From positions 1-64,000 of the forward strand of contig JAHDCX010000010.1 in NCBI GenBank assembly GCA_020629635.1: DNA of 64,000 bases. The letters are read 5' to 3'. The position numbers and the translations under genes are program-made. Origin of the DNA: Acidimicrobiales bacterium (GTDB taxonomy: Bacteria > Actinomycetota > Acidimicrobiia > Acidimicrobiales > SHLQ01). The notes beneath the pieces are model-generated. The model worked only from the letters and a program-made list of their open reading frames with translations. It had not been told where the DNA came from and did no database searches. Positions 18,714 to 23,507 of this stretch are shown one piece after another (position 1 is the stretch's first letter; each line of letters opens with the position of its first letter).

Positions 18714-19736
18714 TCACCACTCGATTTCGAGAATCGCGGCATTGATGCCCGAGCCCATGCCCTGGAACATCACGCCGTCGCCCGGCTCGAGCGAGTCCTG
18801 GACGCCCGCGAGCGTGACGGGGATCGCCGCCGGGCCGATGTTGCCGTAGGCGGGGAAGCTGCGCGGAACACGTTCGCCGTCGATCCCCAGCGTGTCGATC
18901 ACTGCCTGGGTGTGGACCTGCGACACCTGGTGAAGGATGTAGTACTTCATGTCGTACCAGCCGTCCTTGTCGCCGGCGTCCTCCCATGCGAGCTTGGCGA
19001 CCTCGGTCCCGGCTTCGAGCAGGCCGCGTGTGTCGGTCTTCATGCCATCGAGCGAGCCCACGCAGAGACGATGATGCTGCGTGGCGGCGCGGAAGAAGCC
19101 GCCCTTGACGCGGTGGCTCCCGGGGTTCTCCGATTGCCGGCCAAGCACCATCGCCGCCGACCCCGACCCGAGCGTCAGCGATGCGAAGTTCTCGAACATG
19201 TCATCGATCGTGGAGTCAGGGGCGAGGAGCTCTTCGATCGTGTTCTCGTGAATCTGACGGGTGCCTTCGCCGTCGACGATCAGCGCGTAGTCGATCTGGC
19301 CCGCGTCGATCATCGTGCCCGCGATATGGATGCCGTTGAGAAAGCCGAGGCAGGCGTTGGAGACGTCGAAGTTGCTGCAGGTCGATGGCAAACCGAGCAG
19401 GTCGTGCACCGTCACGGCGCTCGAAGGTTCGAGACGCTCCCGGCAGACGCTCGTGTCCACCATGAGCCCGATGCGAGAGCGGTCGATGCCGGACGAAACG
19501 ATCGCCTTCTCGCCAGCCATGGCGGCGGCATCCATGAACGAGACGCCATGGGGCCATTGACGCCGTTGTTCAATCCCCGCGAGGGACTGCAACAACCCCG
19601 GCTGGGTGCCGGTGCGCTCGTAGAACGGCGCCAAACGCTCGTCGATCTGATCGGACGTCACGACCTCGGGCGCATCGCACGCCTCGATCGACACGATGGC
19701 CACGTCGTCGAACCTGAAGTTGGCGTTTCCGATCAC
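18714..19736 (-). CDS. oleA: OleA thiolase-fold condensing enzyme
   Basis: A 340-residue KAS III-like thiolase. Cys129 lies in S-N-A-C-L-G-F, His269 in Y-I-L-H-Q-V and Asn299 in Y-G-N-I-G-P, the Cys/His/Asn set of OleA; Glu103 in R-L-E-P-S-S fits the Glu that OleA contributes across the dimer. OleA condenses two acyl-CoAs head to head to a beta-keto acid. GTG at 19736 is chosen because AGGAC lies 9 nt upstream; longer frames run into the divergent DUF3179 gene. First gene of the ole operon. Confidence 0.9.
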   Translation of the reverse strand: MIGNANFRFDDVAIVSIEACDAPEVVTSDQIDERLAPFYERTGTQPGLLQSLAGIEQRRQWPHGVSFMDAAAMAGEKAIVSSGIDRSRIGLMVDTSVCRERLEPSSAVTVHDLLGLPSTCSNFDVSNACLGFLNGIHIAGTMIDAGQIDYALIVDGEGTRQIHENTIEELLAPDSTIDDMFENFASLTLGSGSAAMVLGRQSENPGSHRVKGGFFRAATQHHRLCVGSLDGMKTDTRGLLEAGTEVAKLAWEDAGDKDGWYDMKYYILHQVSQVHTQAVIDTLGIDGERVPRSFPAYGNIGPAAIPVTLAGVQDSLEPGDGVMFQGMGSGINAAILEIEW

Positions 19737-19854: not shown

Positions 19855-20874
19855 ATGCGAATCCGCAAGACTCGCCGGCGAGCGATCCTCGTCGTTCTCG
19901 CTCTACTGACAACGGCCTGCGGCGAAGATCTCACGACGAGCACCGTCACGTCCGACGAGACGGTCGAGCTTCGTCGAGGTGGCTGGCCGAGCGATCTGTT
20001 CGACCCGACACAAACTGGCGAGGACCTTCCCGAGGACTACCGCGAGTCGGTGCCCCGGGATGCGATCAATCCCGTGTACGACCCGAGGTTCGTGGGCCGA
20101 CAGGACGTCACCTGGCCCGACGACGAGCTCGTCATCGGGGTGGTGATCGACGGAGAAGCACGCGCCTATCCGGTGGGCTTCCTGACGTGGCGAGAGATCG
20201 TCATCGACACCCATCGCGGCATACCGACGATGGTCACGTGGTGACCGCTGTGCGGAACGGCGATGGTCCATCGTCGAGAACTCAACGGTGAGGTGCTGAC
20301 GTTCGGCAATCAGGGCGACCTGTTCGAGAACGCCATGACCTGGTTCGACCATGGCACCGGGAGCATCTGGAGCCAACCGACGGGTGAGGCGATCCTTGGC
20401 CCCCTCGCCGGTGCCACAATCGAACTGTTGCCGTCGTCGGTCGCGACGTGGCGAGAGTGGCAGACTCGCTTCCCGGAAACCCTCGCCCTCGAGACCGACA
20501 CTCGCAGCCCCAACTTCAGCATCGACGACCTCAGCGCGGTCGTCGTGCTCGACGACGACTCGGTGGCGGTCACGATCGAACGGCTACGACGAGAACGAAC
20601 CGTTGAGGTGTCACTCTCCGGGCAGCCCGTCCTCGTGGTCCTCGATCCCGTTGTCGACCGGTGGTCGGCCTGGAGCCTCCTCGACGACGAGGGTCGACGG
20701 AGAGACCTGGTCCTCGAGGGCGACCGGCTGATCGACCGGGAAACCGGGGACCGGTGGAACATTGCCTTCGGCAACTCGCTCAGCGGCCGGGACCCGCTCG
20801 AACGTGTCCCGGTCTTCTCGTCGTTCCTCGACGACTACGAACGAATCTTCCCCGACGGTGCCGTCGTCGACTGA
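19855..20874 (+). CDS. DUF3179 lipoprotein with in-frame UGA (predicted selenocysteine 130)
   Basis: A 339-residue protein if UGA at 20242-20244 is read as Sec. The N-terminus is a basic signal peptide (R-R-R) with a lipobox-like T-T-A-C, Cys22. The frame is DUF3179 on both sides of the UGA: before it I-D-G-E-A-R-A-Y-P-V, after it M-V-H-R-R, T-F-G-N-Q-G, T-G-S-I-W-S-Q and P-L-A-G. DUF3179 proteins carry a W-C-P-L-C-G motif; here it reads W-U-P-L-C-G, a TGC-to-TGA difference, with Cys133 kept. No other stop or frameshift occurs over 210 further codons. A SECIS-like hairpin follows at 20258-20276. The alternative is a recent nonsense mutation leaving a 129-residue fragment. Function of DUF3179 is unknown; a U-x-x-C site suggests thiol redox chemistry outside the membrane. 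Confidence 0.72.
20242..20276 (+). promoter_or_regulatory. UGA codon and SECIS-like hairpin in the DUF3179 gene
   Basis: The UGA is at 20242-20244. A hairpin of 8 base pairs (one G-U wobble) pairs 20258-20265 with 20269-20276 around the triloop GUC (20266-20268); if the top pair opens, the loop is GGUCC. The loop begins 21 nt after the UGA. As I recall, bacterial SECIS elements need a stem-loop with its apical loop about 16-37 nt after the UGA and a G in the first two loop positions; the E. coli fdhF loop is GGUC. All criteria are met. The same architecture recurs at 51011-51029. Confidence 0.65.
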
Positions 20875-22878
20875 CGCTCCACGCCGCTTCTTCCGCCGGC
20901 GCAACACGACGAGCAGAAGAACCAGCACGACAATGGCGGCCCCGATGGCGATGAGCAGTCGCCGGAGTCGCTGGGTGCCGAGCCGTTCGGCTTCGTCGAG
21001 CATCGCCTGAACGTTCGCGTCGGCTGCGGCGATGCCGTCTGGATCATCCGCGGCGAAGGCGGCGACGGCGTCGGGCACGAACACGTTCGGATCTGCGTCG
21101 CCGATACCCCATTGCTGATTGCGGTTGAGCGGCGTCGCAGCACGTGTCCGAACCGCCTCGACGTCGGCGATGCGTGCCAACTGCTCGTCGAGCACATCGG
21201 CGACGGCGGCAAAGTCCGGTTCGTCGAGCTCGTAGGGCGTACGTGCGGCGTCCGAGAGCGCCAGTCCGGCGTCGGCGGCTTCGTCGACCGCCGCCGCATA
21301 GGCGTCCTGGGCTTCGACGGCGGCGGCGATCGTCTCGTGGACGTCGTCGAACCGCCAGCGATCCAGCGCGAATCGAAGCTCGGCCGGCACTGCCCAGTCC
21401 GATGGTCGCTGCACGAATTCGTCGTACGCGGCTCGGGCATCGGCCCGTCGCTCGAGCTCGCCGTCATTGACGTCTCGAAGCACCCACGTTTTGAGGACCT
21501 CGACGAGCTCGTCGTCGACGTCGGCGTCGCTGCGTTCGCTCAGCAGGTCGAGGAGCCGCCGCCAGTCATCGGGCGTGGCGACCGTCTCGGCCGGTCCGTC
21601 ACCCACATAGGAGATCGTGTCTGCGTCCAAGTCCTGAATGGCTGCGGTCATCGCGTCGAAGCCCGCCGCGTCGATCAGCCGCCGGATCGTCCACCAGCTC
21701 GCGTTGTACCCATACAGCTCCTCGGCGCGGAGGTCGTCGTCGCCGAAGCTGCCGAACGGGGACTCCCATTCGATCAGAGGCTGGTGGCCCGCTTCGGCGT
21801 CTCGGGGGGTCGTCGGGAGCGGCTCGGTTGGCCAGCGCAACTCGATGAGTGCCCGATGGGCGAACTCTTCGGCGAGACCTTCGTGAATCCAGCGTCCGTC
21901 GATCAGGTCGTCGTTGAACCACGCGTGCGTCAACTCGTGCAGCATCAGCGCCTGGTCGAGTTCGCTACCCACGGAGATGCTCGTCTCGCGCGAGTCGTAC
22001 CAGCCGCCGTAGCCGTAGAAGTAGGGCACGACCGATTCGGTGATCTCGAGGCCGTTCTGATCGGGCATCTCCAGGCCGATGAGCTCCTCGAGAACGGGGA
22101 TCCCCTCGGTCACGCTCGTCCGGGCGTGGTCGATCCACGCGTCGTCGCCGGGCCACGCCTCGAGTTCGATGGACTCACCAGACACCTCGAACTCGATGGA
22201 TGTCAGCAGCTCATCGACCGAGACCGACACGTACGACTGGAACATGTTCAGGTCGGTGCCGTCCGGCGGCGAGTAGATGCGGATGTCGCCTTCGCTCGTC
22301 ACGATGTCGAGGTCGTCGCCGAAGACCTCGACGGACGCACGCCGCGGTACCTCGACCCGGATCGTGCCGACGCCGGGGTCCGTGAACGAATACACCGGGA
22401 AGGCGTAGTACGCGCCATTGGTCAAGAAGACCGCGTCGGGATCTCGGGGATCACCCACGGGCAACGAGTAGCTGAGGGTGAACGTTCGGCTCTGGCCACT
22501 CTCGAGGTTCGACGGAAGTCGTGCGGTCAGCAGTTCGAAGACCTCGTCGCCCTCGAGCGGTTCGAGCGACGGCGTCAGGTTGCGGCCCCGACTCGTCACC
22601 CGAAGGTCGGTCGCCCCGACGGGTACGAGGTTGAAGAACGTGTCGAAGTACGTGAAGTAGATCGTGTTGCCGCGCGTGTAGCTCGTGGTCGTGTTGGTCA
22701 TCGTGGCTGTCACCTCGACCCGGACGACCCCGTCCTCAGCTCGGAAGACGACGTCTTCCCGGTAGGCGAGCCCGTCGGTTTGGGCGCCCAGTGGCGACGG
22801 CGTGGTCGCTCCCGCCGGTTGGGCCAGCCCAACCACCATCATCAGTGCCGCCAGCGCGACGGCCACACAACGCGCCAT
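20611..22878 (-). CDS. Membrane-anchored HExxH metallopeptidase
   Basis: A 755-residue exported protein. A signal peptide covers about 1-24, then a beta-rich N-terminal region. A zinc-peptidase site H-E-L-T-H is at 314-318, with W-I-H-E-G-L-A-E-E-F following (Glu about 333 or 337), resembling gluzincin/M1-type enzymes. A single membrane segment (about 640-660) followed by R-R-R-K-K-R-R gives type I topology. The last about 87 residues lie antisense to the DUF3179 gene; no minus-strand stop occurs before 20611. A tail this composition-biased suggests loss of an original stop just after the anchor. Start ATG at 22878; upstream in-frame starts lie in the phosphatase gene. Confidence 0.8.
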   Translation of the reverse strand: MARCVAVALAALMMVVGLAQPAGATTPSPLGAQTDGLAYREDVVFRAEDGVVRVEVTATMTNTTTSYTRGNTIYFTYFDTFFNLVPVGATDLRVTSRGRNLTPSLEPLEGDEVFELLTARLPSNLESGQSRTFTLSYSLPVGDPRDPDAVFLTNGAYYAFPVYSFTDPGVGTIRVEVPRRASVEVFGDDLDIVTSEGDIRIYSPPDGTDLNMFQSYVSVSVDELLTSIEFEVSGESIELEAWPGDDAWIDHARTSVTEGIPVLEELIGLEMPDQNGLEITESVVPYFYGYGGWYDSRETSISVGSELDQALMLHELTHAWFNDDLIDGRWIHEGLAEEFAHRALIELRWPTEPLPTTPRDAEAGHQPLIEWESPFGSFGDDDLRAEELYGYNASWWTIRRLIDAAGFDAMTAAIQDLDADTISYVGDGPAETVATPDDWRRLLDLLSERSDADVDDELVEVLKTWVLRDVNDGELERRADARAAYDEFVQRPSDWAVPAELRFALDRWRFDDVHETIAAAVEAQDAYAAAVDEAADAGLALSDAARTPYELDEPDFAAVADVLDEQLARIADVEAVRTRAATPLNRNQQWGIGDADPNVFVPDAVAAFAADDPDGIAAADANVQAMLDEAERLGTQRLRRLLIAIGAAIVVLVLLLVVLRRRKKRRGASVDDGTVGEDSFVVVEERREDRDTFERVPAAERVAEGNVPPVPGFPVDQPVALEDQVSPSTLVVEEAPGRPPVDNGIEDHEDGLPGE

Positions 22879-22910
22879 GGTGGTATAGACGGCAGCCGAG
22901 AGGGGTCGCC

Positions 22911-23507
22911 TTACGGTTCGATCGACCCGCTCGTGCAGCTCTGGTTGAGCACGCGCAGGACGCGGTCTTCTCGTTTCACGCCGAGGACGGTGACCGTTGC
23001 GGTCGCGAGCACGAATCGGCGTCCCTCCGAAGCGTCGAGGTCGAGCCATCGGGCGATGAGTACGGACAGCAGGTGGCCGTGAGCAAAGACGATCACGGGG
23101 CCGTTCGCTGCCGCCGCCACGAGTCGCTCGATCGCCCGATCAGCGCGCACCCCGACGTCGACCGCGGACTCTCCGAGACCGGTCGGGTCGGTCCACTTGT
23201 TCCAGCCAGGGAGGTCTTGTCGAATGTCGACGGTCCGGCGGCCCTCGAACTCGCCGTAGTCCCATTCGATGAGGTCGTCGTCGATGACGAGGTCGTCGCC
23301 GTATCCCGCGAGGTCGGCCGTCTCCCGCGCCCGCGACAGCGGCGAAGCGAAATGAGCGACGAAGGGCCAACCGCTCAACGTCGGTGCGACCATGGACGCT
23401 TCGGTCCGCCCGCGTTCGGTCAGTGAAATATCGGTGCGTCCGGTGTGTTGACCGGTGACGCTCCACTCGGTTTCGCCGTGACGAACCAGGACGATCTGGG
23501 TTTCCAT
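22911..23507 (-). CDS. Histidine phosphatase (phosphoglycerate-mutase-like)
   Basis: A 198-residue protein with the branch-1 signature L-V-R-H-G-E-T-E-W near residues 7-15, a second Arg in S-P-L-S-R-A-R-E-T, and the distal His in F-A-H-G-H. These residues form the phospho-histidine site of the superfamily. Members range from phosphoglycerate mutase to broad phosphatases; the substrate is not readable here. ATG at 23507. It lies 32 nt upstream of the metallopeptidase on the same strand and may be co-transcribed with it. Confidence 0.88.
   Translation of the reverse strand: METQIVLVRHGETEWSVTGQHTGRTDISLTERGRTEASMVAPTLSGWPFVAHFASPLSRARETADLAGYGDDLVIDDDLIEWDYGEFEGRRTVDIRQDLPGWNKWTDPTGLGESAVDVGVRADRAIERLVAAAANGPVIVFAHGHLLSVLIARWLDLDASEGRRFVLATATVTVLGVKREDRVLRVLNQSCTSGSIEP

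Follow-up and report, generated by a model that had tools for sequence, protein, structure and literature searches.

A gene at positions 19855–20874 (+ strand) of the window (the whole 64-kb stretch of DNA that was analysed) is interrupted by an in-frame UGA codon (20242–20244), which raises the question of whether this codon ends translation or is read as an amino acid. We infer that the gene almost certainly encodes a genuine selenoprotein, in which the UGA would be read as selenocysteine (Sec) at residue 130 (Sec130), because the Sec machinery of the host genome, the position of the UGA in one alignment column, its exchange with Cys, a conserved SECIS hairpin, and purifying selection all support this reading.

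As described in the earlier note, the frame is open from 19855 to 20874 apart from a single TGA at 20242–20244, which falls in the motif W-U-P-L-C-G. With Sec at this codon, the product has 339 aa and ends at a stop TGA (20872–20874); we counted 209 codons between the two, one fewer than the 210 of that note. Read in this way, the protein matches DUF3179 (Pfam PF11376; E = 2e-51, 175.6 bits against a cut-off of 27), which upholds the family assignment originally proposed. The putative partner of Sec130 in the UxxC motif, Cys133 (20251–20253, + strand), is invariant in alignment A1. The divergent upstream neighbour (18714–19718, − strand) is a homologue of 3-oxoacyl-ACP synthase III (NCBIfam PRK09258, E = 3e-128). 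At the other end, an antisense ORF (20611–23049, − strand), whose product is a membrane protein carrying a gluzincin-like motif (HELTHAW), converges on the DUF3179 gene and overlaps its last 264 nt; the part of this ORF at 20880–23049 has no Pfam or NCBIfam match at E ≤ 0.001. No promoter- or terminator-like site was found, and searches of the 64-kb window returned no RNA family matches and no tRNA.

The machinery for Sec insertion was sought in the host genome (4.45 Mb, 37 contigs, 96.5% complete), and selA, selB, selC, and selD were all found. A tRNA-Sec with anticodon UCA is encoded on contig C28, which also carries selA and selB directly adjacent to each other (SelA, E = 4e-118; SelB, E = 2e-89). 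The selD gene is on C13 (L024, G000:C13:133404-134318) and has an in-frame UGA of its own, in GAGUGCK, with a hairpin bearing a GGUC apex 32 nt past this codon. The presence of all of these genes means that the main objection foreseen in the earlier note, namely a genome without Sec machinery, does not hold.

After removal of duplicates, the UGA occupies one alignment column in 64/64 distinct UGA-containing genes (+ strand position 20242–20244 in the window), which are as little as about 40% identical and contain no other stops; the homologues without the UGA that were examined have Cys in this column. Across 19 genomes from the host's own family, the closest full-length matches all (13/13, the gene of the window included) have exactly one TGA, in the same column, and Cys-type paralogues in these genomes have Cys there. 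A sample of 395 genomes from across the class yielded 46 full-length orthologues, 42 with exactly one TGA and four without any; all four stop-free genes encode Cys (L058, L065, G395, and G296, the last two being L147 and L125 as matched by contig coordinates). The Cys/Sec exchange that had been proposed as a check is therefore seen in stop-free orthologues, in paralogues, and in Chloroflexota. A scan of named genomes recovered the UGA form in Acidimicrobiales, in Ilumatobacter, in a MAG labelled Nitriliruptorales (L100), and on one Dehalococcoidia chromosome (L139); some of the labels attached to MAGs, for example Acidobacteria or Spirochaetaceae, may stem from misbinning or outdated names. 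One in-frame TGA was also observed in a distant DUF3179 homologue of 33% identity (G005:C99:66437-66952).

The UGA form co-occurs with selB, which is present in 34/37 UGA genomes vs 218/395 genomes overall in the class sample (Fisher p = 5e-7 for comparison with the other genomes, a value that overstates independence because the genomes are related). The three UGA genomes in which selB was not found are MAGs that are only 56, 72, and 75% complete, and selB is also present in the genomes of L139, L100, and L130. On a DUF3179 tree built without the Sec/Cys letter, some Cys genes are nested among Sec genes and five state changes are needed, at least two of them forced by well-supported branches; several branches are weak. 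In one genome, Cys and Sec copies of DUF3179 lie in tandem (L065 and L090). Purifying selection is indicated for the sequence downstream of the UGA by the dN/dS values of the closest pairs in this part of the gene (L077/L078, 0.09; L059/L068, 0.19; L116/L117, 0.09), which are no higher after the UGA than before it; values for distant pairs were saturated and were left out.

The candidate SECIS element is a hairpin at 20258–20276 (+ strand; CGGCGAUG-GUC-CAUCGUCG), in which an 8-bp stem (20258–20265 paired with 20269–20276) encloses the loop GUC (20266–20268). An 8-bp stem with a loop starting in GU had been noticed previously; the distance of 21 nt given for it is that of the apical loop, and the stem itself starts 13 nt past the UGA. 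The hairpin agrees with the published bSECIS model (loop of 3–9 nt with G in the first two loop bases, stem of 4–16 bp, distance of 16–37 nt from the UGA, MFE ≤ −7.5), having a 3-nt loop with G first and then U, 8 bp, a distance of 21 nt, and a folding energy of −10.1 kcal/mol. The isolated hairpin has a z-score of −2.3, and with wider flanks its stability is unremarkable (z −1.5 and −0.7); the evidence for a SECIS function rests on conservation. Pairing is complete (8/8) in 60 of the 64 UGA genes, 7/8 in three, and 4/8 in L139, and the loop across these genes is GU followed by C, U, or G. In L139 (4277–4315), the sequence at about this place allows an alternative stem (CCGGUC/GACCGG), part of which is used in the minimum-energy fold.

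Given that the hairpin overlaps the conserved peptide TAMVHRR, codon choice was tested for constraint beyond that of the protein. When the 83 columns in which the amino acid is conserved are ranked by codon bias relative to pooled codon usage, the six degenerate codons of the hairpin take places 1, 2, 3, 5, 6, and 8; the chance of six given columns all falling in the top eight is 7e-8. The hairpin His (+9) is encoded by CAT in 63/63 genes, and a conserved His at +40 codons by CAC in 57/62. In L100, all eight pairs are kept through two double-sided compensatory changes, which also replace Ala with Gly and Arg with Ser in the peptide. The Cys gene L058 retains the TAMVHRR peptide with only five pairs, three having been lost by synonymous changes. 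The Cys paralogues tested have two to six of the 8 pairs, and the hairpin is missing from most Cys versions. The tandem Cys copy (L065/L090) has 8/8 pairs intact next to its UGA copy, as expected of, and suggesting, a recent Sec-to-Cys change.

On this comparative evidence, the complex SelB:GTP:Sec-tRNA(Sec) would be recruited by the GUC-loop hairpin and would serve the ribosome at the UGA, and insertion of Sec130 would give WUPLC. It is very improbable that the UGA is instead a true stop, leaving a pseudogene or a 129-aa product followed by a separate downstream ORF. UGA is a normal stop in the host genome, and a 203-aa ORF does begin at an ATG (20263) just past the in-frame codon; however, a lone UGA recurring at one position in so many divergent homologues, selection that persists beyond it, and its location inside one predicted domain all argue against termination. 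Since the UGA is retained in 64 distinct homologous genes, a pseudogene or a sequencing error is also rejected. If the UGA were decoded as Trp or Cys or passed by leaky read-through, and the hairpin were a by-product of TAMVHRR coding, part of the hairpin would be accounted for, since the strong conservation of this peptide dictates some of its bases. We nevertheless regard such decoding as highly unlikely in the presence of tRNA-Sec(UCA), SelA, SelB, and SelD. Further points against it are that synonymous bias in the gene is strongest at the hairpin codons, that L100 has compensatory changes, and that pairs have been lost in the Cys gene L058. Homologues have Cys and not Trp at the UGA column, which speaks against Trp.

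Regarding the location of the selenoprotein, its N-terminus (MRIRKTRRRAILVVLALLTTAC) comprises a membrane segment, a signal or anchor (19855–19920, + strand) that ends in a lipobox-like TTA-C with Cys22 at 19918–19920. Cys22 is retained in the nearest orthologues (L026–L029), which makes the description of the product as a lipoprotein plausible for its own clade; in more distant members such as L033, the N-terminal membrane segment lacks Cys22. The product is probably exported and membrane-anchored, in its own clade as a lipoprotein.

Structure prediction (AlphaFold pLDDT 88.9 for the whole protein, 90.1 for the N-terminal domain alone) gives two domains: an N-terminal domain of residues 57–222 (20023–20520, + strand), which holds the UxxC motif, and a C-terminal domain of residues 223–339 (20521–20871, + strand), each a predicted Rieske-like barrel. 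The two halves are alike in profile comparison (hhalign 98.2%, E = 3e-14), and the protein is therefore probably an internal duplication, with the C-terminal domain as a repeat of the N-terminal one. In the predicted models, the best Z of the C-terminal half to Rieske ferredoxins is 9.3 (rmsd 2.7, 91 residues), and all 50 matches listed for the N-terminal domain are Rieske-fold proteins or domains (best Z 7.6 over about 92 residues, with an rmsd of about 2.5); these Z-scores are near the range of unrelated models, and that of the N-terminal domain lies within it, yet the matches listed are of one fold. Foldseek E-values are weak (0.002–0.1), as is profile–profile similarity to Rieske (N-terminal domain 2.9%, E = 0.016, against Rieske profiles of the host genome; C-terminal domain 15.5%). 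A sequence search of the PDB found no relative (best E 0.81), and there is no match to Pfam Rieske (PF00355) at E ≤ 0.001. In the weak profile alignment of the N-terminal domain, the first Rieske Cys falls on Sec130, and the other three ligand positions, on our reading, are taken by non-ligand residues. The CxH and CxxH cluster ligands are absent from both halves in alignments A1–A3; by its ligands, therefore, this is not a Rieske protein, despite the predicted Rieske-like fold. The protein is predicted to consist of two tandem Rieske-like β-barrels that lack the Rieske [2Fe-2S] ligands, with Sec130 and Cys133 on a loop of the first barrel that probably corresponds to the site of the first cluster ligands in Rieske proteins.

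UxxC and CxxC motifs that exchange Sec and Cys are typical of thiol oxidoreductases and of thiol–selenol redox sites. A thiol-redox mechanism for Sec130 and Cys133 seems likely: the two residues would constitute a selenenylsulfide-forming redox pair, with Sec130 attacking an oxidised extracytoplasmic substrate and Cys133 resolving the intermediate, and electrons would be returned via a membrane thiol relay of the CcdA/DsbD–TlpA type. Genes for a TlpA-like thioredoxin and for CcdA/DsbD-like proteins occur near the DUF3179 gene in 7/54 loci (L089, L095, L098, L100, L102, L131, and L141), on the opposite strand and mostly 1–2 kb away (directly convergent in L100); they do not occur in the window analysed here, and their proximity is a weak hint as to the electron source. 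Neighbour clustering across the 54 loci found no operon partner in the majority; a gene for an UnbV/FG-GAP-like, repeat-rich protein (identified by eye) is a neighbour in 7 of them. The UxxC motif could alternatively bind a metal, such as copper or the iron of a remodelled cluster, in which case the protein would use its Rieske-like scaffold to carry electrons or to act as a metal chaperone. Rieske proteins are the best matches of both halves in the PDB, and the loose profile alignment sets Sec130 on their first Cys ligand; however, the other three ligands are absent with no Cx(n)H pattern to replace them, and the Sec/Cys exchange, together with the TlpA/CcdA neighbours at some loci, favours thiol chemistry, so that we consider metal binding unlikely. 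We tentatively suggest that DUF3179 may have arisen by duplication of a Rieske-like fold, with a selenol/thiol site (UxxC) taking the place of the Fe–S site; it would then form a new class of extracytoplasmic selenoenzyme that is widespread in Acidimicrobiia.

This member of the Acidimicrobiia keeps a full Sec system together with a widespread, probably exported selenoprotein, which automated annotation may well cut short at its in-frame UGA codon. Because Sec and Cys versions exist side by side, including in tandem in one genome (L065/L090), what Sec costs and what it gains can be tested directly, and the Rieske-like prediction provides a structural hypothesis for the DUF3179 family.

The suggestion in the earlier note that some DUF3179 members are annotated as selenoproteins was correct: the family (PF11376, UxxC/T) is listed in the selenoprotein tables of PMC9312934 (2022) and PMC13188914 (2026), which both cite Zhang & Gladyshev 2007 on the deltaproteobacterial symbiont of Olavius algarvensis. 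The selenoproteins of these reviews have the same Pfam family and UxxC pattern as the protein described here (UPLC). The source study, as represented in the reviews, concerns a deltaproteobacterium, whereas the carriers here are Acidimicrobiia and their kin; the example proteins in the reviews may include one from Acidimicrobiia. Selenoproteins of Acidimicrobiia are scarcely covered in the literature searched, where one paper, on mangrove metagenomes, matched. Within the host genome, a Cys-type DUF3179 (CPLC; C27, L001/L052) shares the N-terminal domain and conserved motif residues, and a third copy (C35, L002) has CTLC; Cys-type proteins differ in having Cys for Sec and no full hairpin at the site in the paralogues tested. 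Rieske [2Fe-2S] ferredoxins (such as 4p1b, 2qpz, and 4nbb) share the predicted fold of each half but carry CxH...CxxH ligands, unlike either half of DUF3179. The SelD of the host resembles the DUF3179 gene in its UGA decoding and GGUC apex, although it is a cytosolic selenophosphate synthetase with another stem and spacing. As far as we have checked, the large Acidimicrobiia clade, the single Chloroflexota case, the SECIS evidence, and the predicted tandem Rieske-like fold are new. The gene is, with its large clade, an addition to the already known DUF3179 selenoprotein family, on evidence much stronger than a single sequence gives.
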